Source: an uncultured Bacteroidales bacterium (GTDB lineage: Bacteria; Bacteroidota; Bacteroidia; Bacteroidales; Bacteroidaceae). From it: a DNA stretch of 62,240 nucleotides. The DNA is taken from assembly GCA_902796835.1 (NCBI GenBank), contig CADBQP010000002.1:1-62240 (forward strand). The letters are read 5' to 3'. The notes under the pieces were generated by a model. That model ran no database searches. It was not told the origin of the DNA and was given only the letters and a program-made list of their open reading frames with translations. Each line of letters opens with the position of its first letter. Position 1 is the first letter of the stretch. The translations under genes were made by a program, and so were the position numbers. Below are positions 159 through 54,271 of this stretch, piece after piece.

Positions 159-214
159 TATCGGCTCGATAGTTTAAAGAGTTGGCTCGACGGTTTTTTC
201 TGTCGAGCCAACTC
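159..214 (+). repeat. 21-bp-period intergenic repeat, locus A (2 direct units + inverted half)
   Basis: Unit 1 (159-179, TATCGGCTCGATAG...) and unit 2 (180-200, AGTTGGCTCGACGG...) are 21 bp each. They are followed by an inverted arm GTCGAGCCAACTC (202-214). Unit 2 with the inverted arm forms a perfect 13-bp stem (179-191/202-214) followed by eight T (215-222), so this copy could terminate transcription coming from the left. CTATCG-GCT-CGATAG in unit 1 is itself a small hairpin. Confidence 0.8.
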
Positions 215-325
215 TTTTTTTTGCAGCGCACCCAGTTTTGCAAAGAAAACGAGCTCACACTTTGTGAGCACATTCCTCCCTCTTCGCAAGAAAAGAAGCG
301 GCTGCGAATAAATTTGCTACAAAGT

Positions 326-356
326 TTTGACGGGTGTTGTTATTTCGCTACTTTTG
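326..356 (+). promoter_or_regulatory. Bacteroidales-type promoter for the barrel protein
   Basis: TTTG at 326-329, a 19-bp spacer, then TACTTTTG at 349-356. This matches the Bacteroidetes TTTG-N19-21-TAnnTTTG arrangement and lies 42 nt upstream of the ATG at 399. Confidence 0.75.
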
Positions 357-398
357 CGCAGTAAAATACTGACAACAAATCATAAAACTCATACCATT

Positions 399-875
399 AT
401 GAAAAGAATTCTTACTACTGCTTTACTGCTTGTGATGTTCGTAGCCTCTTATGCTCAGTTTGAGAAAGGTAAAAAATATGTGGGCGCCTATACTACGGGT
501 CTGGGGCTCTCCTATAGCTCTGGCGACAAGCTTCGCTTCAGCCTGGGAGCCGAGGGCGGATATTTCATTGCCGACAACTTTATGGTCAAGGCCAATGCCG
601 GATATGAGCACACGCGCCATGCCGACGACTTTAGCTTCGGGCTGGGCGGACGATACTATTTTCAGCAAAACGGTATCTTTCTTGGTGCCGGTGGTGAATA
701 CGTTCATCACGACCCCTCGAACAACGACGTGCTGATTCCCGTAGAAGTGGGATATGCCTTCTTCCTAAACCGCTACGTAACGATTCAGCCCGCTCTCTAC
801 TACAAGATGAGCATCAACGACTTCAGCGACGGTTCGACCGTGGGACTGAAGATAGGACTGGGCTTCTATTTCTAA
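399..875 (+). CDS. Small outer-membrane beta-barrel protein
   Basis: A 158-residue protein with a clear signal peptide (MKRILTTALLLVMFVASYAQ) followed by alternating polar/hydrophobic strands, many Gly/Tyr residues, and an aromatic end (LGFYF) typical of outer-membrane barrels of the OmpW/OmpX size class. An upstream in-frame ATG exists at 327, but 399 is preferred because it starts the signal peptide and sits 42 nt after a good promoter. It appears monocistronic, with a GC-rich hairpin following at 901-938. No specific ligand or function can be read from the sequence; the family call rests on composition and topology. Confidence 0.75.
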   Translation: MKRILTTALLLVMFVASYAQFEKGKKYVGAYTTGLGLSYSSGDKLRFSLGAEGGYFIADNFMVKANAGYEHTRHADDFSFGLGGRYYFQQNGIFLGAGGEYVHHDPSNNDVLIPVEVGYAFFLNRYVTIQPALYYKMSINDFSDGSTVGLKIGLGFYF

Positions 876-900
876 AGACATCAAACGCACGATTATCTTG

Positions 901-938
901 GGGCAGCGAGCACGAAAACAGAATCAGGCTCGCTGCCC
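901..938 (+). terminator. GC-rich hairpin after the barrel gene
   Basis: GGGCAGCGAGC (901-911) pairs perfectly with GCTCGCTGCCC (928-938). There is no T-run after it, so it may be a weak terminator or an RNA-stabilising structure between the barrel gene and thiL. Confidence 0.45.
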
Positions 939-966
939 TAAATGGCAATAACTGTATTTTTAACAT

Positions 967-2016
967 ATGACACCTATCTCTGAACTTGGCGAATTCGGAC
1001 TCATTCGCCGTCTCACTGAAGGATTCTCTCCCAAAAATGCTTCGACGCTGCTGGGCCCGGGCGACGACTGCGCCGTGCTGCAATGCGAAGAAAACTCCGC
1101 CCGCCGCCTGCTCCTGACGAGCGACATGCTGATGGAAGGCATACACTTTGACCTAGTTTATTCGCCCCTGAAGCATTTGGGATACAAGGCGGCTATGGTG
1201 AACTTCAGCGATGTATATGCCATGAACGGCATGCCGCGCCAGCTGCTCGTGAACATTGCCGTGGGTCGCAAAATGGGGGTGGAACACCTCGACGAGCTCT
1301 ATAGCGGACTGCGACTGGCCTGCGACCACCATGGAGTAGACCTTGTGGGAGGCGACACCTCGAGTTCGCTCACCGGACTGGCCCTGAGCCTCACCTGCAT
1401 TGGCGAATGCAGCGAGGAAAGCATTGCCTACCGCAGCGGAGCCAAGGAGACCGACCTCATCTGTGTGAGCGGCAATCTGGGCGCTGCCTACATGGGACTG
1501 CAACTCTTGGAACGCGAAAAGCAAATTTTTGCCAGCCAGCCCGAAAACGATGTGGCAGCACAGCCCGACTTCAGCGGCAAGGAATACCTGCTCGAACGCT
1601 TCTTGAAACCCGAGGCACGCCGCGACATTATTGAAGCTCTGAAGAAAGCGGGCATCAAGCCCACAGCTATGATCGACGTGAGCGACGGGCTGTCGTCGGA
1701 GCTGCTGCACCTTTGCCAGCAATCGGGTTGCGGTGTGCGCATATACGAAGAACGCTTGCCGCTCGACTATCAGACAGCCGTTACGGCCGAAGAGCTGAAC
1801 ATGAACGTAACCACCTGCGCCCTCAATGGCGGAGAAGACTATGAGTTGCTCTTCACCGTGCCGCTTTCGATGCACGACCGCATTGCCGCCATCGACGACG
1901 TGCGCGAAATAGGCTACGTGACGCGCAGCGAGCTGGGAGCCTGCCTCATTGCTCGCGGAAGCGGTGAGGAAATTGAACTCAAAGCGCAGGGCTGGCAAGC
2001 CTTCGGCAAAAAATAG
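967..2016 (+). CDS. thiL: Thiamine-monophosphate kinase
   Basis: Phosphorylates thiamine monophosphate to thiamine diphosphate with ATP, the last step of vitamin B1 cofactor synthesis, in the cytosol. The 349-residue length fits ThiL. The PurM-like fold motifs are in order: PGDDCAV (residues 31-37), TSDM (51-54), SDVYAMNG (81-88) and LVGGDTSSS (126-134), whose acidic residues bind Mg-ATP in the family; IDVSDGLSSEL and GGEDYELLFT follow in the C-terminal half. It opens a tight same-strand run: the CotH gene starts 20 nt downstream. No thiamine riboswitch was recognised in the 91-nt gap upstream and no other thi gene is in the window. Confidence 0.93.
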   Translation: MTPISELGEFGLIRRLTEGFSPKNASTLLGPGDDCAVLQCEENSARRLLLTSDMLMEGIHFDLVYSPLKHLGYKAAMVNFSDVYAMNGMPRQLLVNIAVGRKMGVEHLDELYSGLRLACDHHGVDLVGGDTSSSLTGLALSLTCIGECSEESIAYRSGAKETDLICVSGNLGAAYMGLQLLEREKQIFASQPENDVAAQPDFSGKEYLLERFLKPEARRDIIEALKKAGIKPTAMIDVSDGLSSELLHLCQQSGCGVRIYEERLPLDYQTAVTAEELNMNVTTCALNGGEDYELLFTVPLSMHDRIAAIDDVREIGYVTRSELGACLIARGSGEEIELKAQGWQAFGKK

Positions 2017-2036
2017 AGATAACACAAAGATTCCAC

Positions 2037-3764
2037 ATGAGAAGACTACTCAAGATAGCCGTCTTATTCTTTAGCTTCAGCCAAACCTGCAACTGGGCCC
2101 TCGCACAAGCGCCCAGCTTGCTGGTGAACGGCATCGCCACTGTGGCCGACGAACAAAACCACACGCTCTATGCGGCCATTGCTCCAACCGAGCAAGAACG
2201 AGTTGCATATAGCCTTGAATCGGCCGACGGGCGGACCTACGTACTCAATGGCAGCACAAGAATTGGCCATCTTGAGAAAAACCTGGCTTGGAAAATCCCC
2301 CATAAACTGCAGGCTGAAGGCGACACCACCACATGGAAACTGGTGTTTACCACCCTGCCGGTTATCGATCTCAGAGTGCCCGAAATTGAAAAGGTGAGCA
2401 AAGACATCTCGCGTCAGGCAGAAATGCGCATCATGGCCCCAGGGCGCATTGTCGAGGGCAAGGCCACTGCCACGCTACGAGCTTCGGTTCACTATCGAGG
2501 CTCCACGGCAGCAAAATTTCCGAAGAAAAGCTTTTCCGTAAAATTCATTGACGACACGGGCAATGAGAAAGAGGTCAGTATCTTTGGAATCAACACCACA
2601 GACAAATGGATTCTCGACGCCATGGGCATCGACTTCTCGCGCCTCCGCAACAGAGTGTGTTTCGACATATGGAACAGCTTTAACCGCCTTCCGTCCGACT
2701 ACACGAAAGCCCGTCGCAACGGCACCATGGGCGAACACGTGGAAGTGGTGCTTAATGGTGTATATCATGGACTCTATTGCCTGAGCGACAGAATTTCGCG
2801 CTCACTCCTGGGACTGAAGAAAGCCACAACTCAGGCAGACGGAACGCCGCTCATACGAGGTGTGCTCTACAAATGCGGAGGAGCCGACTTCTCCACACGT
2901 TTTCTGCTGATGCCCAGCGAGGAAGAAATCAATGAAAGAGGCGATTTCAACAAGCCAAACTGGTTTGACTGGGAGCTGTCCTATCCTGAAGACTACCCCT
3001 CGCGCAAGGCCTGGTCGCCGCTCACCGACGCAATGGAATATGCTGCCCAGGCAGCTCAGGACTCAGCCTACGCCACGGAAGAATTCAGCCAATACTTCGA
3101 CCTCGACAATGCCGTAGACTTCTGCCTCTTCATTCACGTGATGATGCTCTACGACAACATGATGCACAACGTTTACCTTTCGGCCAACGATATCATCAAG
3201 AACAGCCGACTGGCTTTCACGCCGTGGGACCTCGACGGCGGCATGGGGCGCGACGGATGGGCTAAAAGAGTGGAATGGTATTCGTTTCCCGAAAATTCTT
3301 TTCAGCAGACGCAACCCTTCAGAACCTTATTCGACAACAAGAACAGTTTCTTCTTCAAAGCCATGGCCCATCGATGGGCAGAACTGCGGCTCCGGCAACT
3401 TTCGGTCGACTCGGTGAAGCAACGCATCAATGCCTATGCCCACAAATTGGAGCACAGCGGAGCCTGGGAAAGAGAGCGGAGGCGATGGAACGACAGCATA
3501 ATATCGCCTTTGGGATTTAGTGTAAACCTGACGACCGACATCCACGAAGAAACCGACTACATGATTGAGTGGTACCGCAAAAATTTCATACACATTGAAC
3601 GCACATTCTCATCGGTAGTGCCAATGACGGGGATTAGTGTCCCCGTTCCTTCCGGCAGTTTCAGAAACGAAATGGACGGGACATACGACCTGACAGGACG
3701 TTTTGTGACCAAGCCGAAACGTGGCATTTACATAAAAAACGGAAGAAAATATATTAAGAACTAA
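2037..3764 (+). CDS. Secreted CotH-family protein with C-terminal sorting tail
   Basis: A 575-residue protein with an N-terminal signal peptide (about residues 1-24, ending near ALAQA). The middle has CotH kinase-family hallmarks: HYRGSTAAKFPKKSF, SRLRNRVCFDIW, GVYHGLYCLSDRI and FTPWDLDGGMGRDG. The aspartates of the last block correspond to the metal-binding active site of the protein kinase-like CotH fold. The C-terminus (YDLTGR...KRGIYIKNGRKYIK) resembles the short type IX secretion-like tail seen in five other proteins here, so cell-surface or secreted location is inferred. The gene lies 20 nt after thiL and 23 nt before the metallophosphoesterase gene. The substrate is unknown; CotH proteins in spore-formers phosphorylate coat proteins, but that role cannot apply here. 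Confidence 0.82.
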   Translation: MRRLLKIAVLFFSFSQTCNWALAQAPSLLVNGIATVADEQNHTLYAAIAPTEQERVAYSLESADGRTYVLNGSTRIGHLEKNLAWKIPHKLQAEGDTTTWKLVFTTLPVIDLRVPEIEKVSKDISRQAEMRIMAPGRIVEGKATATLRASVHYRGSTAAKFPKKSFSVKFIDDTGNEKEVSIFGINTTDKWILDAMGIDFSRLRNRVCFDIWNSFNRLPSDYTKARRNGTMGEHVEVVLNGVYHGLYCLSDRISRSLLGLKKATTQADGTPLIRGVLYKCGGADFSTRFLLMPSEEEINERGDFNKPNWFDWELSYPEDYPSRKAWSPLTDAMEYAAQAAQDSAYATEEFSQYFDLDNAVDFCLFIHVMMLYDNMMHNVYLSANDIIKNSRLAFTPWDLDGGMGRDGWAKRVEWYSFPENSFQQTQPFRTLFDNKNSFFFKAMAHRWAELRLRQLSVDSVKQRINAYAHKLEHSGAWERERRRWNDSIISPLGFSVNLTTDIHEETDYMIEWYRKNFIHIERTFSSVVPMTGISVPVPSGSFRNEMDGTYDLTGRFVTKPKRGIYIKNGRKYIKN

Positions 3765-3787
3765 ATATATCACACACACGCTCATCA

Positions 3788-4906
3788 ATGAAAGCATCCC
3801 TACCCCTTCTATTGCTGCCCCTGCTTGGAGGATTGTATATTGTATATATTCTATGGCACGTATGGCAGATATTGCCCCTTCCCGTATGGGCAAAGTGGGG
3901 CATAGTGTTTCTCATGCTCCTCTGCTTTGCGCTGCTGGTGCCGGCCGTGCTGCCCACAGTGGACCACATGCCCATGTGGCTGGCTCAGGGGGTATATGCC
4001 GTGGGTACCTCGTCACTCATCATTTCGCTCTATCTGTTCATGGGCTTTCTGCTGCTCGATATAGGGAGGCTCTGCCGCTTGGTTCCAGCCTCATTCCTGC
4101 ACAACAGCAAAGCTGGCTCGCTGACGGTGTTCATTGCACTCACGGCTATCTTTGTGGCTGGCAACATACACTATCACCACAAGCAGCGACAGACTCTGAG
4201 CCTTCAAACAGAGAAAGCGCTCAAAAAGCCACTGCGCATGGTGATGCTGAGCGACCTGCACCTGGGTTACCACAACCATCGCGCCGACCTGGCAAAATGG
4301 ATTGACCTGATTAATGCCGAAAAGCCCGATGTCGTGCTCATAGCCGGCGACATTGTAGACCGCTCCATACGCCCACTGGCCGAGGAGAATATGGCGCAGG
4401 AGTTTCGCCGCATCAAGGTGCCTATCATTGCCTGCCTCGGAAACCACGAATACTACACTGGCGAGCCCGACTCGGAACAGTTCTATCGCGAGGCGGGCAT
4501 CTCTCTCTTGCGCGACAAGGCCATCGACCTCGACGGCATTACCATCGTTGGTCGTGACGACCGCACCAACATGCGGCGGCAGAGTGTAGAAATGCTCACC
4601 GACACTATATCAAAGGCGCAATACACCATCCTGCTCGACCACCAGCCATATAATCTCGAAGCCACCGAACAAGCCGGCATCGACTTCCAACTGAGTGGCC
4701 ACACACACTATGGACAAGTTTGGCCCATTTCATGGGTTACGCGTTTGCTTTTTGAATGCGCCTACGGCCATCACCAACGTGGAGGTACACAATACTACGT
4801 GAGCAGTGGCATCGGCATCTGGGGCGGAAAATTCCGCATAGGCACCTGCTCAGAATACGTGGTGGCCGATCTCACTTCGACCACACAAAGCAAGCCCAAG
4901 CCATGA
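3788..4906 (+). CDS. Membrane-anchored metallophosphoesterase
   Basis: A 372-residue protein. The first ~125 residues hold about four hydrophobic segments. The rest is a calcineurin-like phosphoesterase domain with all dinuclear-metal motifs: MLSDLHLG (D156, H158), AGDIVD (near 187-191), CLGNHEY (218-221), LLDHQP, and SGHTHYGQVWP. This architecture resembles the YkuE-like group; members hydrolyse phosphoesters, in some cases lipid-linked ones, but the substrate here cannot be read. The stop codon overlaps the start of the next gene (ATGA at 4903-4906), which implies translational coupling. Confidence 0.88.
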   Translation: MKASLPLLLLPLLGGLYIVYILWHVWQILPLPVWAKWGIVFLMLLCFALLVPAVLPTVDHMPMWLAQGVYAVGTSSLIISLYLFMGFLLLDIGRLCRLVPASFLHNSKAGSLTVFIALTAIFVAGNIHYHHKQRQTLSLQTEKALKKPLRMVMLSDLHLGYHNHRADLAKWIDLINAEKPDVVLIAGDIVDRSIRPLAEENMAQEFRRIKVPIIACLGNHEYYTGEPDSEQFYREAGISLLRDKAIDLDGITIVGRDDRTNMRRQSVEMLTDTISKAQYTILLDHQPYNLEATEQAGIDFQLSGHTHYGQVWPISWVTRLLFECAYGHHQRGGTQYYVSSGIGIWGGKFRIGTCSEYVVADLTSTTQSKPKP

Positions 4907-5943
4907 CACATCAGACACAAGCCGCACCCACACCCCTGCCCAAACGGCGCAATTCGGGGCTCGATGCCATGCGAGCCTTGGCTGCCCTCCTGGTGGTTGC
5001 CATCCACTTTGGCGGAACCCGCATCGGAACCGATGCTGAAAGTTTGACATCACTCATTGTGAATGCCGAGGTACGTGTGGCAGTGCCCCTGTTTTTCATG
5101 TTCACAGGATACTACTACGAGAGCATGGTAGCGAGGGGTTGTTTCGGGCACCATTTGCGAAAATTGCTCACCATGGCTGTAGGAGCCACACTGCTCTATT
5201 TCTTCTACGAACTGGCACTGAGCTGGCACAACGGCAGTTTGAACAGTTTCTTGGGCGAACTGCTTTCTGTCGACTCCTGGACAAACTGGCTCATCTTCAA
5301 TAATGTGTGGTTTGCCTCCCACCTGTGGTTTTTCTATGCCGCGGTCTATGCGTTGTTTGTGATGCGGTTTTTCGACATCATCAAACTGCAACGCTGGCTT
5401 CCCGCTTTAGCCGCCATGTTACTTGCCGTTATGTGGGTGAGCATCGACGTGCCACAAAACTACTACACACGAAATTTTCTATTCTTCGCCCTACCCTACA
5501 TGGTTCTGGGACGCTGGCTTCAGTCAGCAAAGATGCGTCAAAGGCTCAACAGCTTCTCTAGGCGCAAACTTCTGGCGATGCTGACAGTGGGATTACTCTT
5601 AGTGGCCGGCGAAACAATATGGATGGCACTGAGCAGACAGCCTCTGTCTCCAATGCGCGAAACTTTTGCAGGCACCCTTATCTGCGCCATTTGCCTGTTC
5701 GAATTATTTGTCCGCTGCCCAAACGAATCGGGCCGATTATGGCACTTCTCGCAGCTCGTGGGCCGAAAGTATTCGGCGTATATCTACATCCTTCACATCA
5801 TTGTGGGCCACCGCATTGCCGGATTTTTTGGCACTGATTCACTATGCGTGGCAATTTTCATAAGCGTGCCCGTTATTTTCATAATCTCACTTTTCCTTTC
5901 ATACCTCTATGTTGACTGGATGAAACCACGGTTGAAGCACTGA
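4903..5943 (+). CDS. Acyltransferase 3 family integral membrane protein
   Basis: The ATG at 4903 overlaps the stop of the metallophosphoesterase gene, giving 346 residues. An upstream in-frame start at 4756 would lie inside the previous gene and is not favoured. The N-terminal block GLDAMRALAALLVVAIHFGG contains the conserved Arg and His of the OafA/WecH acyltransferase-3 family, followed by about ten hydrophobic segments and a late YIYILHIIVGH motif. Family members transfer acetyl or other acyl groups to surface sugars, peptides or lipids. It ends the thiL operon; a bidirectional terminator follows. Confidence 0.85.
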   Translation: MTHQTQAAPTPLPKRRNSGLDAMRALAALLVVAIHFGGTRIGTDAESLTSLIVNAEVRVAVPLFFMFTGYYYESMVARGCFGHHLRKLLTMAVGATLLYFFYELALSWHNGSLNSFLGELLSVDSWTNWLIFNNVWFASHLWFFYAAVYALFVMRFFDIIKLQRWLPALAAMLLAVMWVSIDVPQNYYTRNFLFFALPYMVLGRWLQSAKMRQRLNSFSRRKLLAMLTVGLLLVAGETIWMALSRQPLSPMRETFAGTLICAICLFELFVRCPNESGRLWHFSQLVGRKYSAYIYILHIIVGHRIAGFFGTDSLCVAIFISVPVIFIISLFLSYLYVDWMKPRLKH

Positions 5944-5956
5944 GCAGGAATGAACA

Positions 5957-6001
5957 CAAAAAAACAGGCCCCACACCATGATGTGCAGGGCCTGATTTTT
6001 G
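5957..6001. terminator. Bidirectional terminator between convergent genes
   Basis: An A-run, CAGGCCC (5965-5971), a small CACA/TGTG inner stem, GGGCCTG (5988-5994) and a T-run. It sits between the ends of the acyltransferase gene (+) and icd (-) and can serve both strands. Confidence 0.8.
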
Positions 6002-6029
6002 TAAATTGGCAAAAATGTTTGCTATCGCT

Positions 6030-7241
6030 CTATACCTCAAGGCGCCTTTCGAGCCGAGTGCGAATGGCAGCGAGGAAGTCGGCAGAGTTGACAGCCTGCG
6101 GGGCCACACCTTCCATGAGGCCGGCAAGGTCTTTGGTCACAATGCCCTCGCCAAGCGTGTCAAAGCAGGCAGCCTCGAGTTCGTTGGCAAAGCGCACCAG
6201 TTCGGGCAGTTTGTCGAGTTCGCCGCGCTTGCGCAGTGCACCGCTCCATGCAAAGATTGTTGCCATGGGGTTGGTCGAGGTTTCCTCGCCCTTCAGGTAC
6301 TTATAATAATGACGTGTCACTGTGCCATGAGCAGCCTCGTACTCATATTTTCCGTCGGGGCTCACGAGCACACTGGTCATCATGGCCAACGATCCAAAAG
6401 CAGTGCTCACCATGTCACTCATTACGTCGCCGTCGTAGTTTTTGCAGGCCCAGATATAGCCACCTTCGCTGCGAATGACGCGAGCCACGGCATCGTCGAT
6501 GAGCGTATAGAAATAGGTGAGACCTAACTCTTCGAACTTAGCCTTGTATTCCTCATACACTTCGTCGAAGATAACGCGGAACTGAGCGTCATATTTCTTC
6601 GAGATCGTATCTTTGGTGGAGAACCAAAGGTCCTGCTTTGTATCTATGGCAAACTTAAAACAGGAGTGTGCAAACGAGCGAATGGACTTATCTGTGTTGT
6701 GCATGCCCTGCAACACACCTTCACCCTTGAATTCGTGCACAAGCACCTCTTCACGCTTGCCGTCGGCTCCCTCATAAACGAGAGTTGCTTTGCCCGGTCC
6801 TGGCACACGGATTTCCACACTCTTATACACGTCGCCATAGGCATGACGGGCAATGGTGATGGGTTTCTTCCAGTTTTTCACAGCCGGTTTGATGCTGGGA
6901 ATGGTAATGGGTGTGCGGAACACTGTACCATCGAGTATGGAACGTATGGTACCATTTGGCGACTTCCACATTTCGTGCAGATTGTATTCCGTCATGCGCT
7001 GTGCATTGGGAGTAATGGTTGCACACTTCACAGCCACGCCCAGACGCTTAGTAGCCTCTGCCGCCTCAGTGGTGATAGCATCACGCGTTTCGTCGCGCTT
7101 CACGAGTCCCAGGTCGTAGTATTCAGTTTTCAGTTCTACAAATGGGAGAATGAGTTCATCCTTAATCATTTTCCATAGGATGCGTGTCATTTCATCGCCA
7201 TCCATTTCGACGACGGGAGTCGTCATCATAATTTTCTTCAT
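6030..7241 (-). CDS. icd: NADP-dependent isocitrate dehydrogenase (eukaryote-type dimer)
   Basis: Oxidatively decarboxylates isocitrate to 2-oxoglutarate with NADP+. The 403-residue sequence begins VVEMDGDEMTRILWKMIKDE and includes IDDAVARVIRSEGGYIWACKN and YEAAHGTVTRHY, the hallmarks of the homodimeric eukaryote-type (subfamily II) NADP-IDH common in Bacteroidetes rather than the E. coli Icd type. It is the last gene of the minus-strand citrate locus, 13 nt after aconitase, so it is almost certainly cotranscribed. With citrate lyase upstream, it joins acetate plus oxaloacetate to 2-oxoglutarate, in either direction. Confidence 0.95.
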   Translation of the reverse strand: MKKIMMTTPVVEMDGDEMTRILWKMIKDELILPFVELKTEYYDLGLVKRDETRDAITTEAAEATKRLGVAVKCATITPNAQRMTEYNLHEMWKSPNGTIRSILDGTVFRTPITIPSIKPAVKNWKKPITIARHAYGDVYKSVEIRVPGPGKATLVYEGADGKREEVLVHEFKGEGVLQGMHNTDKSIRSFAHSCFKFAIDTKQDLWFSTKDTISKKYDAQFRVIFDEVYEEYKAKFEELGLTYFYTLIDDAVARVIRSEGGYIWACKNYDGDVMSDMVSTAFGSLAMMTSVLVSPDGKYEYEAAHGTVTRHYYKYLKGEETSTNPMATIFAWSGALRKRGELDKLPELVRFANELEAACFDTLGEGIVTKDLAGLMEGVAPQAVNSADFLAAIRTRLERRLEV

Positions 7242-7254
7242 GGTATGCAGTTTT

Positions 7255-9495
7255 TTATTTGCGTTCTTTGTAGTAATTCATCAAGCAGCCCTCGGCCAGA
7301 ATTTCGCGCTCTGCTTGTGTAAGGTTTTGGAAATAGAGATGCAGGTCGTGCACTCCCTTTTTAGAAATCACCTTGGCATCGATTTCTTCTTTTCCGCCCA
7401 AAATGGCATCGCGGATGCCTGGCACAAAGATGTAATCGCCAGGTTCATAGTCGAAAGGAGTATCCTTATCTATGGTAAATGGCACAATGCCCCAATTGAT
7501 ACAGTTGCTGCGATAGCGCTTGGTGGCATATTCATAGCAGATATTAGCATCGCCTCCAAGCACTTTTTGGCAGCTGGCTGCCTGCTCGCGTGCAGAGCCG
7601 TCGCCGGGACGATTGGCAAACACGCACGAGCCCAAAGATGTTTCGCTGGCATCGGCGCCCACCTGAGCCAGAGCCTGTGTCACCGCCACTGGCGTTTGAC
7701 CTTGGCGGCGAGCAAGGTCGTCGGCCTGAATTCGCTTCGAGAGGCCTACGTATTCGGGCACACGACGACTCAACGCGAACTCTGAGAGCTTGAGCGGATT
7801 GGAACGATAGCTCGAAGTCTCGCCCGAGGGAATGAGCTCATCGGTAGTAGTGACGGGGTCGTGGATTACGGCTGCCAGCTCGAGCAGCATATTCGTCTGC
7901 ATAGGATACATGGTGGGCCAATCCTTGATGTTGGGGCCGTAGCGCAGTTCCTGCGAAAGGTCGGCATGGCCAAATCCGTTGAAGACACGACGCTCATAGA
8001 TACGAGCATCAAATTCGTAGGGCTTGTGAGTGTCTTCATAATCGACATCAGTAGCCGCGGTAAGCACACCGCCGTTTGCCGCCGTTGCAGCAATGGAACG
8101 GGCATCCATCAGGGCCACAAGCGAAATCTGGCCTTGTCCGGGTTTAGAGCCCTCACGGTTGGGGAAGTTGCGAGTCGTGTGGCGAATGGACAGTCCATTG
8201 TTAGAGGGCACATCGCCAGCTCCAAAGCAAGGTCCGCAGAAGGCAGGCTTAATAACCACACCGGCCTCGAGCAGCTCTTCTGCTATGCCACTGCGAGTGG
8301 TGGCCATATAGACTGGCGTGGACTGCGGATAGGCCGAAATAGTGAAATAGTCGTTGCCCACTGATTTGTCTTTCAATATGGCCGCCGCAGCACTCAGGTT
8401 GTCGTATGTTCCGCCTGAGCAACCGGCAATTATACCCTGATCGGCCATCACCTTGCCGTCCTTAATCTTACTCACGAGGTCTACGCTCACCTTTTCGCCA
8501 AACCTGCGACGTGTGTCTTCTTCCACCTCGCGAAGAATCTTTACGGGGTTGGCCTGCAGTTCGTGAATGGTATAGGCATTCGATGGATGGAAAGGCAGGG
8601 CAATCATGCTTTCCTGTTTCGAAAGGTCTATGCGAATCATGGCATCGTAGTAGGCCACTGCTCCGGGCTGAAGCACTCGGAAGGCCTCGGGGCGACGATG
8701 AATTTCGTAGTGATGCTTCACCTCATCGTCGGTAATCCAAATGCTGCTCAAGCAGGTGGTTTCGGTGGTCATAATATCTATGCCGTTGCGGAAGTCGATG
8801 GGCAGGTTTTTCACGCCAGGCCCTGCAAATTCGAGCACTTTGTTTTTCACAAAGCCGCTCTCGAAGACGGCCTTGACCAACGATATGGCCACATCGTGCG
8901 GACCGATGCCTTTGCGCGGACAGCCCTCCAGCCACACAAGCACCACCTCGGGAGCATTTATATCCCAGGTGTTGCTGAGCAGTTGCTTCACGAGTTCGCC
9001 GCCTCCTTCACCTACGCCCATATTGCCAAGCGAACCGTAACGAGTGTGGCTGTCGGAGCCCAAAATCATATTACCGCAGGCCACCATGGCTTCGCGAGCA
9101 TATTGATGAATGACAGCCTGGTTAGCCGGTACGTAGATGCCACCATATTTTTTGGCTGCGGAGAGTCCAAACACGTGGTCGTCTTCGTTGATTGTGCCTC
9201 CCACTGCGCAAAGTGAGTTGTGGCAGTTGGTCATGGCATAGGGGATTGGGAATTTTTCCAAGCCGCTGGCACGGGCTGTCTGGATGATGCCTACATAGGT
9301 TATATCGTGCGACATCATGGCATCGAACTTGATGCGCATTTTTTTGCCACCCGAATGGTCCACGTCGTGTGCCCGGAGTATCTGATAAGCGATGGTATGT
9401 TCGCGTGCCTCGTCGGGCGAGGGAAGACCTGACTGATTGTTCTGCAACTGCGAACCATTGAGCAGATAAACTCCATGTTCAAAAATTTCTACCAT
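7255..9495 (-). CDS. acn: Aconitate hydratase (mitochondrial-type)
   Basis: Isomerises citrate and isocitrate through a [4Fe-4S] cluster. The 746 residues match the mitochondrial-type aconitase length. Visible cluster and active-site regions include GSDSHTRYGSLG, TTETTCLSSIW, GIIAGCSGGTYDN and KPAFCGPCFGAGD (the last carrying the paired Cys of the family signature), plus PGDGSAREQAA near the C-terminal swivel domain. It is preceded by the citC-citG fusion with a 33-nt gap and followed by icd. No separate citrate synthase gene is present in the window. Confidence 0.94.
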   Translation of the reverse strand: MVEIFEHGVYLLNGSQLQNNQSGLPSPDEAREHTIAYQILRAHDVDHSGGKKMRIKFDAMMSHDITYVGIIQTARASGLEKFPIPYAMTNCHNSLCAVGGTINEDDHVFGLSAAKKYGGIYVPANQAVIHQYAREAMVACGNMILGSDSHTRYGSLGNMGVGEGGGELVKQLLSNTWDINAPEVVLVWLEGCPRKGIGPHDVAISLVKAVFESGFVKNKVLEFAGPGVKNLPIDFRNGIDIMTTETTCLSSIWITDDEVKHHYEIHRRPEAFRVLQPGAVAYYDAMIRIDLSKQESMIALPFHPSNAYTIHELQANPVKILREVEEDTRRRFGEKVSVDLVSKIKDGKVMADQGIIAGCSGGTYDNLSAAAAILKDKSVGNDYFTISAYPQSTPVYMATTRSGIAEELLEAGVVIKPAFCGPCFGAGDVPSNNGLSIRHTTRNFPNREGSKPGQGQISLVALMDARSIAATAANGGVLTAATDVDYEDTHKPYEFDARIYERRVFNGFGHADLSQELRYGPNIKDWPTMYPMQTNMLLELAAVIHDPVTTTDELIPSGETSSYRSNPLKLSEFALSRRVPEYVGLSKRIQADDLARRQGQTPVAVTQALAQVGADASETSLGSCVFANRPGDGSAREQAASCQKVLGGDANICYEYATKRYRSNCINWGIVPFTIDKDTPFDYEPGDYIFVPGIRDAILGGKEEIDAKVISKKGVHDLHLYFQNLTQAEREILAEGCLMNYYKERK

Positions 9496-9528
9496 AGTTG
9501 ATTTAGAAATAAAGTTAATAGGTTATAA

Positions 9529-11773: not shown

Positions 11774-11800
11774 TGGTGTCGGGCTTTCAATCGTGTGACA

Positions 11801-14223: not shown

Positions 14224-14290
14224 GATATAGATTTAAGAGAGTTTTTCTGGTTAGTTTTTTCCGATAGTTCAGGCTTATGTGCGTGGAGGG

Positions 14291-14572
14291 CTAATCCTTC
14301 CACACGTCTTTGCCCGTTGCCCTCACGGCCGCAGCCGTCACTCGGGCCCTGATGGTGCAGTCGAGGGCGCCTTTGTCCACCAGGCGCACATGGGCGTTGG
14401 TCAGTCCAAAATCCGTTAATGCCTCAGTGGCTACTTGCCTGATTTGTTCACCAAACTGCAGGGCCACGGTGCTCTCGAGTTCAATGTGCAAGCCTTCGCC
14501 TTCGGCCGGCGAAATTTGCACCATTACGTCGCCCGACTCCAGCGTGCCCGCCGTAGCTGTCTTGATTTCCAT
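14291..14572 (-). CDS. citD: Citrate lyase acyl carrier protein (gamma subunit)
   Basis: A 93-residue carrier protein of the citrate lyase complex. The motif AGTLESGDVMVQISP contains Ser13, aligned with the known attachment serine (Ser14 in other CitD) for the phosphoribosyl-dephospho-CoA group added by CitX. It is the first gene of the minus-strand operon citD-citE-citF-citX-citCG-acn-icd, with a TACTTTTG box just upstream. Confidence 0.93.
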   Translation of the reverse strand: MEIKTATAGTLESGDVMVQISPAEGEGLHIELESTVALQFGEQIRQVATEALTDFGLTNAHVRLVDKGALDCTIRARVTAAAVRATGKDVWKD

Positions 14573-14587
14573 AAAAAATTTAATTTA

Positions 14588-15623: not shown

Positions 15624-15678
15624 CAGTTGGCTCAACTCTTTAAACAGTTGGCTCAACTCATTAAATTGTCGAGCCAAC
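15624..15678 (+). repeat. 21-bp-period intergenic repeat, locus B (2 direct units + inverted half)
   Basis: CAGTTGGCTCAACTCTTTAA... is followed 21 bp later by a second copy with ATTAAA, then the inverted arm GTCGAGCCAAC (to 15678). It lies in the 367-nt gap between the divergent TraX-like and symporter genes, so it cannot be a terminator shared by gene ends. Confidence 0.8.
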
Positions 15679-15843
15679 AGAGCATTCTCTTTACCCTCCG
15701 AATTCATTGCCCCGTAGAGCAAAATCAAAAAAAGGCGGTTCAAAAGTAGTCAAAGCGCCGCAAACCACAGGCTTTCGGCAGTAAAAAAAAGCGAGATTGC
15801 AAGAAAGTAGCAAGTTTGCCCACCGTTTTCAACCAATAATTAT

Positions 15844-26438: not shown

Positions 26439-26524
26439 ATAATTCGCTGATTGTTCCAAGGAGCGCTACTGCTGTACATGCCAGGAGGTCGGCCACATTC
26501 ATTAACCTGCACTGCCGAAAAAAC

Positions 26525-26587
26525 TATCGGCTCGGGAGCATTGCGAGTTGGCTCAACTGTTTAAAGAGTTGGCTCAACTGTTAGAAC
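26525..26587 (+). repeat. 21-bp-period intergenic repeat, locus C (3 direct units)
   Basis: Three consecutive 21-bp units: 26525-26545 (TATCGGCTCGGGAG, degenerate), 26546-26566 (AGTTGGCTCAACTGTTTAAA) and 26567-26587 (same with TTAGAA). It lies in the 411-nt gap between divergent surE and parA. The rest of the gap holds the parA promoter box and no gene. Confidence 0.8.
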
Positions 26588-38626: not shown

Positions 38627-38645
38627 ATTTTTGTTTAAAAACTAG

Positions 38646-38694
38646 CTCGGAGATATTTTAAACGATCGCGGAGATATTTTAAATTATCTCCGAG
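38646..38694 (+). repeat. Variant 21-bp-period repeat, locus D1 (different stem, same layout)
   Basis: CGGAGATATTTTAAA occurs at 38648-38662 and again exactly 21 bp later at 38669-38683, followed by the inverted arm ATCTCCGAG (38686-38694). The layout (direct, direct, inverted, with TTTAAA spacers) matches the GGCTCAAC family although the stem sequence is different. Confidence 0.7.
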
Positions 38695-38704
38695 TTTATT
38701 AAAA

Positions 38705-38740
38705 CTGCTGGCTCAACTGTTAATCTTGTTGAGCCAGCAG
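38705..38740 (+). repeat. 21-bp repeat family, locus D2 (single hairpin form)
   Basis: CTGCTGGCTCAAC (38705-38717) pairs perfectly with GTTGAGCCAGCAG (38728-38740). It contains the GGCTCAAC core as one unit plus one inverted arm. It lies about 45 bp downstream of the end of the Oar-type receptor gene (38786, minus strand). Confidence 0.75.
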
Positions 38741-43398: not shown

Positions 43399-43498
43399 CT
43401 ACATATTTTTAAATGGGCATGCTTTCCCGTCATTTAAACTCAAACTTTATTGTGTTAATAACTCTTGCTTAAGATTACGCATCAGCATCCCTTTTGCG

Positions 43499-43615
43499 AG
43501 TTGGCCCGACTCTTTAAACTATCGGCTCAACTCTTTAAACTATCGGCTCAACTGTTTAAACTATCGGCTCAGCTGTTTAAACTATCGGCTCAGCTGTTTA
43601 AACTGTCGGCCCGAC
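43499..43615 (+). repeat. 21-bp tandem repeat, locus E (5 full units + partial)
   Basis: Five head-to-tail 21-bp units (43499-43519, 43520-43540, 43541-43561, 43562-43582, 43583-43603) and a 12-bp sixth (43604-43615). Units carry TCGGCTCAACT(G/C)TTTAAAC with A/G and C/G exchanges; the first and last use GGCCCGAC. It lies in the 484-nt gap between the divergent NPP-like and feoB genes, which otherwise holds only promoter-like boxes. No spacers are present, so it is not CRISPR. Confidence 0.9.
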
Positions 43616-43756
43616 ATTGGCGAGGAAGGAAGGGAACCTGAAACTCGTCTTGCCTCAGGGTGAATGCTCTGTGCCAGGGAATAAAAATAACCACAAAAAC
43701 TACATTTCATCAAAAAATCATCGTTTCAGGGTATTGGCCATACTAACAATTAGCCG

Positions 43757-43816: not shown

Positions 43817-46105
43817 ATGACCTTAGCCGACCTACATAATGGAGAATGCGGTTTCGTAAAGAGCATTCAAAGCAGCATGGCGCTGCGCACGCACCTTGAG
43901 GAAATGGGTTTTGTGGAGGGGCAGCGCGTTTTTCGCACCTATGCCTCGCCCACAGGCAGCCCTGTGGTCTATGCAGTGATGGGCTCGCGCATTGCGTTGC
44001 GAGAAGAAGAGGCCCGGTGCATCGAAATCAGCGAATGTGCCCTGCCCTGCCCCGCTCCGAAGAGCCGCCACGAAGATGCTGCAGAAAGGCACCAAGCCAT
44101 GACGGCCGAAAACTGCCACGATGCCGCCGAGGCACGCGAATCGGGCAACACGGCCTGCCCCGACTGCGGAAACTCCATGAGCTGCCCCAACTGTGCGCCC
44201 AAACGCGAATTCACACCAAAGAAGGAGGGCGATATCGTCATGGCCCTCGTGGGCAATCCCAACTGCGGAAAAACGGCCTTCTTCAATGCGGCCTGCGGCG
44301 GACACGAGCGCACAGGAAACTATGCGGGAGTGACCGTAACAAGCGTGAAAGGCGACACCGACTTTGAAGGGGAACACATTCACATCATCGACCTGCCCGG
44401 CACGTATTCACTGCGAGCCTTCAGCCCCGACGAAGGCTATGTGGCCCACGAGCTGGAGCGCGGCGAAATTGACGTCATCATCAACGTGCTCGACACCAAC
44501 AACCTGGAGCGCAACCTGCTGCTCACCTTGCAGCTTCAGGAAACGGGCATTCCCGTGGTAGGGGCGCTCAATATGTTCGACGAATTCCGCCAAAGCGGCA
44601 GCCACATCGACATACCTCAGCTCAAAGGCCGGCTGGGCATGGAGCTTTTCCCCACCGTGGCCTACCGCGGCACAGGCATCAAGGAAGTGCTGCGCGCAGC
44701 CGTAGAAGCTGCCAAGAAACCGCGCATGGAAGCCCAGCCAGTTCAGACACCGGCCAGCCAGGAAACCACCGCACAGCTGAACGCCAACATACGGGCGTTG
44801 CTACACGGCGTTTACGGACTGGAAGAGGGGCGCCTTGCCAAATCAGTAGGTCGCTGGGACCGCTGGCTGCTATCGCGCCCCGTGGCCTACGCCTTTTTCT
44901 TCCTCATCATGTGGCTCATATTCCAGGCCACTTTCACCCTGGGCCAGTTTCCCATGGACTGGATCGACGCCGGAGTGGCCTGGCTTCAGGAAGTCTGCGA
45001 CCGCACGTTGGCTCCAGGCTGGCTCCACGACTTGCTGGTACAAGGCGTGCTGGGCGGAGTGGGCTCGGTCATCGTCTTCCTACCCAACATTCTCATTCTC
45101 TACTTTCTCATTTCCCTGCTCGAAGACTCAGGCTACCTGGCCCGCGCCGCCACCCTGGCCGACCCTCTCCTGAAAAAAGCCGGATTGCATGGCAAGTCGT
45201 TCATACCCATGCTCATGGGCTTCGGTTGCAACGTGCCGGCCGTCATGGCTACGCGCACCATTGAAAGTCGCAAGAGCAGATTGGTCACCATGCTCGTCAT
45301 CCCCTTCATGTCGTGCTCGGCGCGCATACCCATCTACCTCATTTTTGCCGGCGCCTTCTTCCCCGACCACGCCGGCACCGTAATGTTCCTGCTCTATGCA
45401 GGCGGCATCGTGGTAGCCTTTCTTTCGGCCATCGCTATCAGCAAAATGCTCAGCAAGCAGGGCGACAGCCACTTCGTCATGGAAATTCCGCCCTATCGCT
45501 GGCCCATGCTCAAGAGCGTGGTGAGCCACACTTGGGAACGCGGACGCGAATACCTGCGCAAAATGTCGCACGTCATTCTCATTGCCAGTGTCGTGATTTG
45601 GGTGTTGCAATACTTCCCGCGCACCAACAACATGCCCGACGGCATTGAAGCTGCCGAGCCCACCACGGCGCAGAGCCAGCAAGAGAACTCCTATCTGGCC
45701 CAAATCGGCAAGGCCATCACTCCCGTTTTTGAGCCCCTGGGCTACAACTGGCAAATGACCACCGGCATACTCACCGGAGTGAGCGCCAAGGAGCTGATGG
45801 TGAGCACACTGGGTGTGCTCTACAGCCTTCCTACCGAAGAGGCCGACGAAGCAGCCAACGTAAGCTCGGCCGACGAAGCCAAAGGCTCACGACTGGCCGA
45901 ACTTATACGCGCCGAAGGCACCACATCGGCCGCCGCCCTCTCGTTTCTGGTGTTTGCTCTGCTCTACATACCCTGCATCGCTACCGTGGCAGCCCTCAAA
46001 AACGAGAGCGGACATTGGCGATATGCCCTCTTCGGCTCGTTCTATACGTTTGCCGTGGCCTATGCCTTGGCCTTTGCGGCCTACCGCATCGCACTCATGT
46101 GCTGA
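43817..46105 (+). CDS. feoB: Ferrous iron transporter, FeoA-FeoB fusion
   Basis: A 762-residue inner-membrane Fe(II) importer. FeoA SH3-like domain at 1-~72 (LHNGECGFVKSIQSS...GSRIALREEEARCIEI). A Cys-rich linker follows with C114-x2-C117-x5-C123-x2-C126 (CPDCGNSMSCPNC), probably a small metal-binding knuckle. The FeoB G domain has GNPNCGKT (146-153), the switch region GNYAGVTV, IIDLPGTYSL and NVLDTNNLERN. The membrane part has two Gate-like halves (GFGCNVPAVMATRTIESRKSRLVTMLVIPFMSCSARIPIY). A complete gene; no feoC follows. Confidence 0.95.
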   Translation: MTLADLHNGECGFVKSIQSSMALRTHLEEMGFVEGQRVFRTYASPTGSPVVYAVMGSRIALREEEARCIEISECALPCPAPKSRHEDAAERHQAMTAENCHDAAEARESGNTACPDCGNSMSCPNCAPKREFTPKKEGDIVMALVGNPNCGKTAFFNAACGGHERTGNYAGVTVTSVKGDTDFEGEHIHIIDLPGTYSLRAFSPDEGYVAHELERGEIDVIINVLDTNNLERNLLLTLQLQETGIPVVGALNMFDEFRQSGSHIDIPQLKGRLGMELFPTVAYRGTGIKEVLRAAVEAAKKPRMEAQPVQTPASQETTAQLNANIRALLHGVYGLEEGRLAKSVGRWDRWLLSRPVAYAFFFLIMWLIFQATFTLGQFPMDWIDAGVAWLQEVCDRTLAPGWLHDLLVQGVLGGVGSVIVFLPNILILYFLISLLEDSGYLARAATLADPLLKKAGLHGKSFIPMLMGFGCNVPAVMATRTIESRKSRLVTMLVIPFMSCSARIPIYLIFAGAFFPDHAGTVMFLLYAGGIVVAFLSAIAISKMLSKQGDSHFVMEIPPYRWPMLKSVVSHTWERGREYLRKMSHVILIASVVIWVLQYFPRTNNMPDGIEAAEPTTAQSQQENSYLAQIGKAITPVFEPLGYNWQMTTGILTGVSAKELMVSTLGVLYSLPTEEADEAANVSSADEAKGSRLAELIRAEGTTSAAALSFLVFALLYIPCIATVAALKNESGHWRYALFGSFYTFAVAYALAFAAYRIALMC

Positions 46106-51307: not shown

Positions 51308-51318
51308 AATTGCGGGTG

Positions 51319-52286: not shown

Positions 52287-52430
52287 AATATTAATATGTA
52301 TTTAAGATTAGGTTCTTGATGTTTGAGAAATTCGGGACGTCTTCCTGCACAGGCCACCCATGCCGGCCAGCAGGCTATGGGCGAAGCCTTTCTGGGCTGC
52401 AGCAAAGGGAGCTGCTCGCCCTCAGGGGCG

Positions 52431-52940
52431 CTATGGCGAATAGATTCTTATGCCCACGTCGGCCACACCGGGCAGCAGGTCGCGCCTCATGATGTGCCTC
52501 ACGCGCAGATACCCCCACGTTCCCCGGCTCAGCCTCAGCGTGTCGAGCCCGTAGCAGAACTGGTGCATGCTGGTACCCTGCCCTTCGCTGTCGCCCATCG
52601 GGTTTGTCATTTTGCAGGCCAGTGTGTCGCAGCGCTGCTCAAGGGCGCCCCCTGGTGTATGCCACACTTGTCTCACCTCAATCCAAAGTGTCTGGAAGGG
52701 ATAGCCCACAGCCTGGCTTGTGCGCACTCCCAGTTCTATGGCATAGTTGTCGGTTTGTGTCAGGGTGTCGACAGTGTAGGTGAGCGTGTCGATCATTTCC
52801 CAACCTTCCACGGGAGTGGCGCAATAGTGGTGATATATGGTGCGCTGGCGGCAGCCAGCCATGAGCAGCAGGGCGATGGTCAAGGCCAGCGCCACCTTTG
52901 CGGCCCCGCGCGGGCTGCTCGCAACACGGAGGCTACCCAC
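52431..52940 (-). CDS. gldH: Gliding motility/T9SS lipoprotein GldH
   Basis: A lipoprotein with hydrophobic stretch VALALTIALLLMAGC followed by RQRTIYHHY. The body (EGWEMIDTLTYTVDTLTQTDNYAIELGVRTSQAVGYPFQTLW...GTWGYLRVRHIMRRDLLPGVADVGIRI) matches GldH. I propose the GTG at 52940, which overlaps the ricT stop (GTGGGTAG) and gives 169 residues; an ATG at 53015 would add 25 residues of Ala/Thr-rich sequence inside ricT. GldH is needed for gliding and linked to type IX secretion in Flavobacterium, consistent with the sorting tails in this window. Confidence 0.82.
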   Translation of the reverse strand: MGSLRVASSPRGAAKVALALTIALLLMAGCRQRTIYHHYCATPVEGWEMIDTLTYTVDTLTQTDNYAIELGVRTSQAVGYPFQTLWIEVRQVWHTPGGALEQRCDTLACKMTNPMGDSEGQGTSMHQFCYGLDTLRLSRGTWGYLRVRHIMRRDLLPGVADVGIRIYSP

Positions 52941-54057
52941 GGCGGTCGCGCTTGTCGCGTTGGCTGCGGCGCCCATTGTGCTTGGCACGGCGGCCTGCGT
53001 TGCGACCATTGTCAAATCGGGTCACACTCTCTTGCTCCAGCAGGTCGTTCGAACGGGGCTCTGCCGTAGCCTCGGCATTCAGCGATTCGGGCTTCAACCC
53101 CTCGCGGTTCATGCGCAACACTTCGAAGGCTCTCTCGGCCGAGATGGTCACAGCATTGGCCAGTATGCGGCGGTCTGAGCTATAAGTCACCTGGCCCGAA
53201 AGGATATCGGCCTTGAAATAATAGTATATGCCGTCGGTTGTCTCGAGCTGTATTTCGCGGCTCGGCAGTCGTTGCTGGGCTTCCATGTATTGGTCTACTT
53301 CGTAGTTGAGGCAGCACTTGAGTTTGGCACACTGCCCTGCCAGTTTTTGCGGATTGGGGGCAATGTCCTGAAAGCGGGCTGCGGCTGTCGACACGCTGTT
53401 GAAGTTTTTCACCCACGTGGCGCAACAGAGCTCACGTCCGCAGGGCCCGATTCCGCCAATGCGTCCGGCCTCCTGACGGGCACCTATCTGCCTCATTTCT
53501 ATGCGCACCCTGAAGGCTTCGGCCAGCACCTTGATGAGCTGGCGAAAGTCCACACGCCCGTCGGCTATGTAGTAGAAGATGGCTTTCTGCCCGTCGCCCT
53601 GATACTCCACGTCGCCTATTTTCATGTTCAGCCCCAGTTCTTTGGCTATTTGGCGCGAGCGTATCATGGTGCCCTGCTCCAGCGCCTTGGCTTCCTCATA
53701 TTTTTCGAGGTCCACCTGCCGCGCCTTACGATAGATGCGGCGTATTTCGGTGCCTGGCTTCAGGCTGGCTTTCTTCATTTGCAGGGCCACGAGCGGCCCC
53801 GTGAGCGACACCACGCCGATGTCGTGGCCCGGACTGGCCTCTACGGCCACCATGTCGCCCTTGGCCAGGTCGAGTCGGTTTTCGTTGCGAAAGTAGCCCT
53901 TGCGCGTGTGCTTAAACTGCACCTCCACCAGGTCGTTTTCGGTGGGTGCGGCAGCCACGTCGGCCATGTAGTCATATGTGTTGAGCTGTCGGTCTTGGCG
54001 CCCCACTCCGCGGCAGCTAAGGCCGCAGGGGTAGTCTCCCGAACAAAAGTCGTTCAT
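52933..54057 (-). CDS. ricT: PSP1-domain protein RicT (YaaT)
   Basis: The ATG at 54057 gives 374 residues; the longer form from 54171 runs through the promoter. The PSP1 domain includes VEVQFKHTRKGYF, DIGVVSLTG, KAIFYYIADGRVDFRQLIKVLAEAFRVRIEMRQIGARQEA, then GGIGPCGRELCCATW and KLKCCLNYEVD, Cys clusters that bind iron-sulfur in the RicAFT complex of Bacillus. A further N-terminal Cys set (C5, C11, C15) is present. The C-terminus is basic and low-complexity. gldH follows with an overlap, an arrangement common in Bacteroidetes. Confidence 0.88.
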   Translation of the reverse strand: MNDFCSGDYPCGLSCRGVGRQDRQLNTYDYMADVAAAPTENDLVEVQFKHTRKGYFRNENRLDLAKGDMVAVEASPGHDIGVVSLTGPLVALQMKKASLKPGTEIRRIYRKARQVDLEKYEEAKALEQGTMIRSRQIAKELGLNMKIGDVEYQGDGQKAIFYYIADGRVDFRQLIKVLAEAFRVRIEMRQIGARQEAGRIGGIGPCGRELCCATWVKNFNSVSTAAARFQDIAPNPQKLAGQCAKLKCCLNYEVDQYMEAQQRLPSREIQLETTDGIYYYFKADILSGQVTYSSDRRILANAVTISAERAFEVLRMNREGLKPESLNAEATAEPRSNDLLEQESVTRFDNGRNAGRRAKHNGRRSQRDKRDRRG

Positions 54058-54140
54058 ATTGCGATATTGTTGTGATATGTTGGTTTCTTTCCTGACGGCA
54101 TCGTGCAGCGCGGTAGTGGCTGGCCGCAAGGTGCCCGCTG

Positions 54141-54172
54141 CAAAGCTACAAAAAAACTCCAAACCGCGCAAA
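54141..54172 (-). promoter_or_regulatory. Promoter for ricT-gldH
   Basis: Minus strand: TTTG (54172-54169), 20-bp spacer, TAGCTTTG (54148-54141), 84 nt before the ATG at 54057. This supports the shorter ricT start. Confidence 0.75.
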
Positions 54173-54218
54173 GGCTCCCCCGTGTTTCATTTTTTTTGGA
54201 ATGGGAGCCCAAAACCTC

Positions 54219-54271
54219 AGCGGCTTGAGAGATTTAAGAGTTGGCTCAACAGTTTAAATTGTTGAGCCAAC
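54219..54271 (+). repeat. 21-bp-period intergenic repeat, locus F (2 direct units + inverted half)
   Basis: Degenerate unit AGCGGCTTGAGAGATTTAAG (54219-54239), then GTTGGCTCAACAGTTTAAAT (54240-54260), then inverted GTTGAGCCAAC (54261-54271). Stem 54240-54250/54261-54271 is perfect. It lies between ricT (start 54057) and the terminator of the small-protein gene. Confidence 0.8.

Follow-up and report, generated by a model that had tools for sequence, protein, structure and literature searches.

The stretch of DNA analysed here, hereafter the window, is a 62,240-nt contig stretch (CADBQP010000002.1) from the draft genome of an uncultured Bacteroidales bacterium (GCA_902796835.1). Between its genes lie short tandem arrays, A to F. 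An original prediction, made from the letters alone, had described an intergenic repeat family with an exact 21-bp period at six loci. All six are present, and we confirmed the period and the intergenic placement for the window. Set in frame, the six loci yield one rule: a unit consists of AAA, a 15-nt module and TTT, which makes 21 bp, and adjacent units meet at TTTAAA. The module is composed of a 6-nt arm, a 3-nt centre and a second 6-nt arm and is often dyad-symmetric, while the linker is a 6-nt A/T sequence, ideally TTTAAA. The arrays contain 2 to 6 units, direct and inverted ones mixed, and are mostly intergenic. We observed that other genomes have arrays built of other letters in the same 21-bp frame; this conservation of length with different letters suggests that spacing along the helix matters.

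Array A (158..214), near the left end of the contig and upstream of an OMP_b-brl gene (399 or 435 to 875), consists of three 21-bp units, CTATCGGCTCGATAG, GAGTTGGCTCGACGG and CTGTCGAGCCAACTC, followed by T8. Array B (15624..15680), also of three units, separates divergent genes encoding a TraX-like protein (14773-15504, minus strand) and a sodium:dicarboxylate symporter (15872-17038, plus strand). In array C (26524..26580), a degenerate unit (26524-26538) precedes two direct units (26545-26580) in the gap between surE (minus strand) and the gene of a ParA-type ATPase (plus strand). Array D (38642..38740) lies 45 bp beyond the stop of a minus-strand gene (38786-42031). It was correctly noticed but given too short an extent, since two CGG-centred units and one CCG-centred unit precede, in frame, the GCT/AGC inverted pair; array D thus has five units and mixes two module types in one frame. 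Array E (43498..43617), with six mostly direct units, was recovered by Tandem Repeats Finder (TRF) with a period of 21 and 4.9 copies; a phosphodiesterase gene (42091-43332, minus strand) lies on one side and a FeoA/FeoB-domain gene (43817-46105, plus strand) on the other. Array F (54217..54273), upstream of a PSP1-domain gene (52933-54171, minus strand), is made of a degenerate in-frame unit (54217-54231) and an inverted pair (54238-54273). Placement between divergent genes, claimed for three loci, is indeed found for B, C and E. The common layout of A, B and F was also rightly described as two direct units followed by an inverted one, but the supposed inverted half-unit is a full 15-nt in-frame module, the centre of which is AGC and not GCT. 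When folded as single-stranded DNA, five of the six arrays beat most or all of their shuffles (A, z = -11.2; D, -9.2; F, -4.8; E, -3.8; B, -2.9), and array C does not (z = -1.1).

The 16-mer consensus GGCTCAACTGTTTAAA matches the window 14 times with up to 3 mismatches, compared with a mean of 0.37 and a maximum of 3 in 100 dinucleotide shuffles. The family extends further than was reported from the window: when up to 3 mismatches are allowed, a 19-mer form of the unit has 135 matches in the draft genome of 2.016 Mb, and its reversed control has 2. As 70 of these matches are forward and 65 reverse, the common plus-strand orientation noted at first is an accident of the window. Spacing was measured in 803 kb of this genome, namely the window and 40 stretches (741 kb of the 2,016 kb) chosen around listed hits, so that densities obtained from this DNA are not genome averages. 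There are 22 pairs of exact TTTAAA with a spacing of 21 bp, 6 with 42 bp and 2 with 63 bp, and no other spacing between 12 and 69 bp has more than 2. Using twelve stem variants with up to 1 mismatch, we counted 77, 35, 10 and 5 pairs at 21, 42, 63 and 84 bp, respectively, which represent 127 of the 139 pairs lying up to 90 bp apart. When a looser neighbour was accepted, 112 neighbouring units were 21 bp apart, 2 were 20 bp apart and one each 18, 14 and 13 bp apart, with none between 22 and 33 bp. The linkers of these 112 neighbours are exact TTTAAA in 44 cases and altered in 68, with at least 3 of the 6 positions changed in 24, and neighbouring modules differ on average at 4.1 of 15 positions. 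Substitutions have piled up in the arrays; length changes have not. The helical spacing is therefore fixed irrespective of the letters, as looked for in a phased protein-binding array. In the intergenic parts of the same 803 kb, TRF reported 45 arrays of period 21. Of 151 pairs of neighbouring units, 14 consist of identical units, compared with 1.1% for units taken from different arrays. Where two GCT-type units adjoin, their centres agree in 16 instances and are opposite in 11.

Dyad symmetry was examined in 151 distinct modules from 68 arrays, gathered, like the arrays, by rules of our own, and a few of these modules are probably noise. The arms form Watson-Crick pairs at a frequency of 0.605, compared with a mean of 0.472 and a maximum of 0.522 in 2000 shuffles, and pairing drops when the partner is slid along the module. 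We counted 35 windows in which AAA and TTT enclose a 15-nt stretch whose arms form 5 or all 6 of the possible pairs, against 2 to 7 for enclosed lengths of 13, 14 and 16-24. Pair 3-13 is G-C in 49 modules and A-T in 48, and pair 5-11 is C-G in 56 and T-A in 40, with mixed T-G in 23 and C-A in 19. The covariation of an RNA stem, for which a check had been proposed, did not appear, as we did not find the preference for G-U over A-C expected of RNA (36 versus 53 in the sense strand of codirectional gaps, p = 0.09; 24 versus 18 in convergent and 20 versus 22 in divergent gaps). Since G-U is not favoured, the symmetry is better read at the level of DNA than as selected RNA pairing.

To place the elements relative to genes, which we called with a home-made codon-usage script, exact cores were located; 65 of the 68 are intergenic, and coding sequence makes up 88% of the DNA concerned. 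With up to 1 mismatch in the core, there are 59 intergenic elements, 28 in codirectional, 14 in divergent and 11 in convergent gaps and 6 at edges (array E, whose cores are two mismatches off, stands outside this set). This corresponds to 0.60, 0.60 and 0.95 elements per kb of codirectional, divergent and convergent gap. Codirectional elements lie at a median of 71 bp past the upstream stop. A position upstream of gene starts, proposed originally, does not hold in general: the last 75 bp before start codons are avoided (29% of 45 arrays lie there, compared with 49% when arrays are placed at random in these gaps, p = 0.007). At four places in the fetched DNA, arrays are separated by at most two genes, which are ordinary by eye, and no mobilising enzyme was recognised by eye among them, the library search having covered only two window genes. 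Clustering along the chromosome was considered and rejected for a relative, G212, in which 45 unit loci are scattered over a 2.76-Mb contig as at random. Taken together, the copies are many, their spacing is exactly conserved and their placement relative to genes is non-random, and the family thus survives the checks by which the original prediction could have failed.

In the genomes searched, the letters of the unit are private to this species. Among 301 sampled genomes of the family, 21 have a match with up to 2 mismatches, 66 matches falling in this genome and one or two in each of the 20 others; in this sample the unit is absent from all of the 20 further genomes that belong to the genus. 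A search for the exact unit in 84,980 species genomes, which may omit records very close to this genome, returned 11 places with one match each, in unrelated organisms. Matches elsewhere are single and chance-like, and we found no arrays of these letters in the other genomes searched.

The frame is what recurs. TRF, applied to intergenic parts of the DNA fetched from 12 genomes, most of which were sampled around arrays or pattern hits, gave 119 arrays of period 21, with 1, 29, 14 and 5 of periods 20, 22, 23 and 19, respectively; short periods of 10-14 bp are also common in these data. Thirty-four windows that had not been chosen for array hits on purpose (680 kb, six genomes) gave 18 arrays of period 21 and 0, 10, 9 and 3 of periods 20, 22, 23 and 19; these windows were drawn from contigs seen in hit lists, and one window of G082 and five of the ten of G128 hold a listed pattern hit. 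The peak at two helical turns is clear in the DNA sampled. With up to 2 mismatches, the relative G184 has 83 places with three successive linkers, and the control has none. We found 21 arrays in 20 of its stretches picked on hits, all of them intergenic and built from a few half-modules combined around TTTAAA and CGG. Its dyad is centred on the linker, with 4.0 of 6 pairs across the linker and 2.15 within the module, compared with 3.2 across the linker and 3.8 within the module in this genome. In seven contigs of G184, one end falls no more than about 65 bp from a listed array match, and the array repeats probably break short-read assemblies (G184 contigs that start or end at or near arrays include L190 and L195).

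In a further genus (g13), genome G236 has nine exact three-linker matches, around CGG, and units of 21 to 23 bp with other letters are found in G293 (genus g14), G128 and G251. A CGGAGA pattern marks G156, G212, G275 and the present genome (G000) and is near its control in most other genomes; G347 (genus g20) also scores, with six loci that all lie on its contig C8, a few bases apart, and that we set aside unread. The three-linker TTTAAA pattern is noisy at 3 mismatches, the reversed control often being higher. At zero mismatches it matches 19 of 399 genomes and its control 16, with the control itself high in G128, G185 and G139; since nearly as many genomes match the control, single three-linker hits prove nothing. 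G333, G263 and G198 were rejected as carriers of the 21-bp design, the three loci read in each of them being heptamer-like arrays. This separate intergenic class, recognised by eye (TCTAACG; GTTTAAA/GTTTAGA), was seen in G156 (L117, L119, L121), G333 (L157, L162, L167), G263 (L155, L161, L166) and G198 (L154, L160, L165), and similar arrays occur in some genomes outside the genus. We also observed in G128 (L278, L279, L280, L282, L283) several unrelated 21-bp intergenic families, among them AAATTT-linked pyrimidine-rich units and GAATCGGCTTGTAGGAGTGAC units, and one 23-bp family. As to the distance of the relatives, median identities of seven of them are 40-59%, values that are too low because they come from best hits in about 100 kb each, paralogues included. 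The ParA proteins of the genus are 64-87% identical to that of this genome for strong matches, 57 of 58 genomes having a match, a few of them weak.

The sites appear to turn over as well. In the gap upstream of parA, which holds array C here, the species core within one mismatch is found in 0 of 29 other genomes of the genus; these 29 were taken from 56 such genomes with a ParA match, their gaps were identified by the parA side alone, and no more than 12 of the gaps have a length of at least 80 bp. By reading, the gap upstream of parA in G329 (L218) contains GC-rich GGGCCTTAGGCGCGCATAAAC-type units in 21-bp phase. In one syntenic divergent gap, arrays are present both in this genome (L033) and in G015, with different letters; it is a single case. 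Positional conservation of the arrays was rejected, as the comparisons made gave no excess of shared sites.

Two other features of the window were noticed. At 82-129 and 61938-61991, near the two contig ends, lie alike GC-rich hairpins with CGTTTGCGGGCGGGGATTTT (I12 and I20), the first of which is terminator-like. In addition, two inverted genes of about 1090 codons each (54606-57872, minus strand; 58441-61740, plus strand) share at their ends stretches of 84 to 126 nt with 92-94% complementarity (I1 and I2) and a further one of 86% (I3); Pfam gave for them a sole weak hit, below the cut-off.

We compared the arrays with the nearest known systems. Direct repeats of about 20-22 bp that hold a protein on one face of the DNA are known from plasmid iterons and operator arrays, which occupy one origin or promoter and keep their letters; the present arrays, in contrast, occupy dozens of chromosomal sites and vary in their letters. 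As far as the terms that we searched reach, no description of this array family was found in the literature. The closest described element is BrickBuilt of Porphyromonas gingivalis, an intergenic 23-nt minisatellite within a miniature inverted-repeat transposable element (MITE) and limited to its species (PMC4596501). It shares with the present arrays a strictly intergenic position, a tandem unit spanning roughly two turns (23 nt), letters confined to one species, a potential for stem-loops and a Bacteroidales host. However, it has a leader and a tail and, at some of its 19 loci, IS5-like terminal inverted repeats, as well as up to 22.8 direct repeats and 0-6% insertions/deletions within elements (PMC4596501), whereas the arrays studied here have 2-6 units, both direct and inverted, with almost no length change in frame, their flanks having been viewed to 27 nt.

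Repetitive extragenic palindromic (REP) sequences, bacterial interspersed mosaic elements (BIMEs) and REP doublets forming hairpins (REPINs) are likewise extragenic palindromes in high copy, the letters of which differ by species (PMC2817692, PMC3116915, PMC3686654); BIMEs also have regularly spaced units in alternating orientation (PMC2817692). The arrays are extragenic palindromes of 20-40 bp in high copy, as REP-type repeats are. The PF01797 Y1 transposase of such repeats (TnpA-REP, or REP-associated tyrosine transposase, RAYT), however, has 0 matches in this genome, which is 94% complete. Among 58 genomes of the genus, 28 have PF01797 matches, which do not track the arrays: there are none in G212, G015, G156, G286, G303, G275, G317 and G329, and the family is present in the array-bearing G184, G251 and G128 and in the array-poor G082. 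For an IS relative, as in BrickBuilt-like MITEs, PF01609 has a single match in this genome, which falls short of the cut-off. Palindromic repeats with GTAG or CGTC tags, also 20-40 bp long and numerous, were considered as well; their CGTC type is reported from Bacteroidetes among other phyla (PMC3733652). Here the tags are at chance level: in the 12 nt next to each end of the 68 arrays, there are 2 GTAG (2.5 expected) and 2 CGTC (1.9 expected). The text of PMC3733652 contains none of the words 'spacing', 'helical', 'TTTAAA' and 'Prevotella'. Target duplications above chance were not seen in the 27-nt flanks of the arrays. Moreover, the 21-bp spacing recurs in other species with other letters. 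Since the transposase and the tags were tested for and not found, the arrays are not placed in the REP/RAYT family, and membership was rejected for lack of Y1 transposase, tags and target duplications alike. An origin from phages or viruses was also rejected: a distant blastn search with array E gave no phage match, and scans of viral contigs gave, for the unit of this species, two contigs with the same stretch and one match each, inside an open reading frame, and no match for the G184 word. We class the arrays as a variant of intergenic minisatellites or palindromic repeats, rather than as members of the BrickBuilt or REP/RAYT families.

How can such a frame be maintained? We tentatively favour, at rather less than even confidence, the reading that these intergenic minisatellites, whose letters turn over between species, keep their 21-bp frame because they act as duplex DNA, most likely as a platform for a cooperative protein. 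With a step of two turns, each dyad unit would face the same side of the helix as the one before it. Hairpins and terminators need no fixed linker and a two-turn step aligns the dyads, which argues for duplex DNA as the thing that is read. A dimeric, cooperative and fast co-evolving DNA-binding protein, possibly of the nucleoid type, is predicted to hold the frame; a protein of this kind, with quickly changing specificity, would account for the frame, the symmetry and the private letters. The arrays may grow and shrink partly by local copying of units and would be seeded at new intergenic sites by some route. Of the mechanisms first proposed, phased protein binding is therefore the one we retain, as the frame outlives the letters, with the binding protein itself being only putative. 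A bolder version, a family-wide system of DNA addresses in which two-turn dyad arrays meet a reader protein that changes so fast that each species has its private letters while the sites turn over, appears doubtful to us.

Several points weigh against the favoured reading. This genome contributes 45 and G184 contributes 23 of the 119 arrays of period 21, and both, like most of the genomes behind this count, were sampled around arrays or pattern hits; 12 of the 18 period-21 arrays in the less-selected windows come from G128, which was first noticed for a 21-bp AAATTT signal; and the near relative G082 has one period-21 array in 100 kb. Within this genome the centres vary between GCT, CGG and GGC types, more variation than one would expect a single protein that reads sequence to accept. 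When this genome is compared with G184, arrays flanking orthologous genes do not coincide above the chance level (55 reciprocal best hits, 36 gene sides, table [[20,7],[6,3]], p = 0.69). Strong hairpins with A/T edges at some arrays also resemble terminators. Protein binding is deduced here from the spacing alone, and copying by unit length may hold 21 bp without selection.

This last point leads to the strongest rival, which we regard as a real possibility, only slightly less probable than the duplex-DNA reading: dispersed selfish or neutral repeats, REP- or MITE-like and without host function, in which the 21-bp frame is a by-product of a 21-nt copying ruler, be it slippage of fixed length, template switching at hairpins or an enzyme that recognises the unit and mobilises it. 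The private letters, the sites unshared between orthologous gaps, the densities in the three types of gap, the avoidance of start-proximal DNA and the greater likeness of neighbours than of units from different arrays all agree with it; the first two also speak in part for the mobile REP-like nature first suggested for the family. Conversely, the RAYT transposase, REP tags and target duplications that would go with it are absent, Y1 matches do not follow the arrays across the genus, no mobilising enzyme was recognised by eye at the four array-close places, and plain tandem slippage does not produce inverted units in the same frame. A species-specific signal of self-recognition, for example a dialect for DNA uptake, would also combine private letters with a conserved frame, and inverted pairs do lie at some gene ends; known uptake signals are, however, many times denser and often genic, whereas there are about 135 unit matches per 2.0 Mb, in arrays rather than as single short words and almost none in genes, and we consider this very improbable.

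Two rivals concern the transcript. Bidirectional intrinsic terminators or 3'-end hairpins, with an A-run, a stem and a T-run, would fit the array edges (A-rich on the left, 4.2 of 6 versus 1.75, and T-rich on the right, 3.2 of 6 versus 1.72), although half of this richness is due to the AAA and TTT of the unit itself. They would also fit array A, which is a strong terminator-like site (176-217) and the only such array in the scanned positions 1-20000, the 9 of 11 convergent elements that are terminator-like on at least one strand, and the position of codirectional elements shortly after the upstream stop. In codirectional gaps, however, terminator-like structure is not strand-specific (sense 9 of 26, antisense 12 of 26), by a loose criterion that also picks out, on a given strand, 25 of 52 element-free divergent gaps (edge gaps and those longer than 900 nt were excluded). 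Furthermore, divergent genes flank 14 of the 59 elements, the folding of array C does not surpass that of its shuffles, and a terminator has no use for a linker of fixed length. As a general role, strand-specific termination was rejected, the sense strand scoring no more often than the antisense strand, and we judge terminators of either kind unlikely to explain the family. An RNA switch, in which two equivalent 5' arms vie for one 3' arm in mutually exclusive hairpins, was suggested originally by the layout of A, B and F, which by reading recurs in two G251 arrays. This layout is one among many unit orders, and three of the six window arrays lie between divergent genes. At the gathering threshold, Rfam found in the window only a tRNA and no known RNA family at the arrays. 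Together with the missing G-U bias and the shuffle-like folding of array C, this led us to reject the switch as a general role, and we give it next to no credence.

Intergenic repeats usually lose both their letters and their length as species diverge. Here, the 21-bp length recurs without the letters, within the genus and in one or more further genera of the family, which points to an unrecognised constraint by the DNA helix. If a protein is behind the frame, it would act in chromosome organisation or in regulation, and spacing would have revealed it where motif searches miss it. If the address system were true, it would be a bacterial counterpart of a rapidly co-evolving pair of satellite and binding protein.

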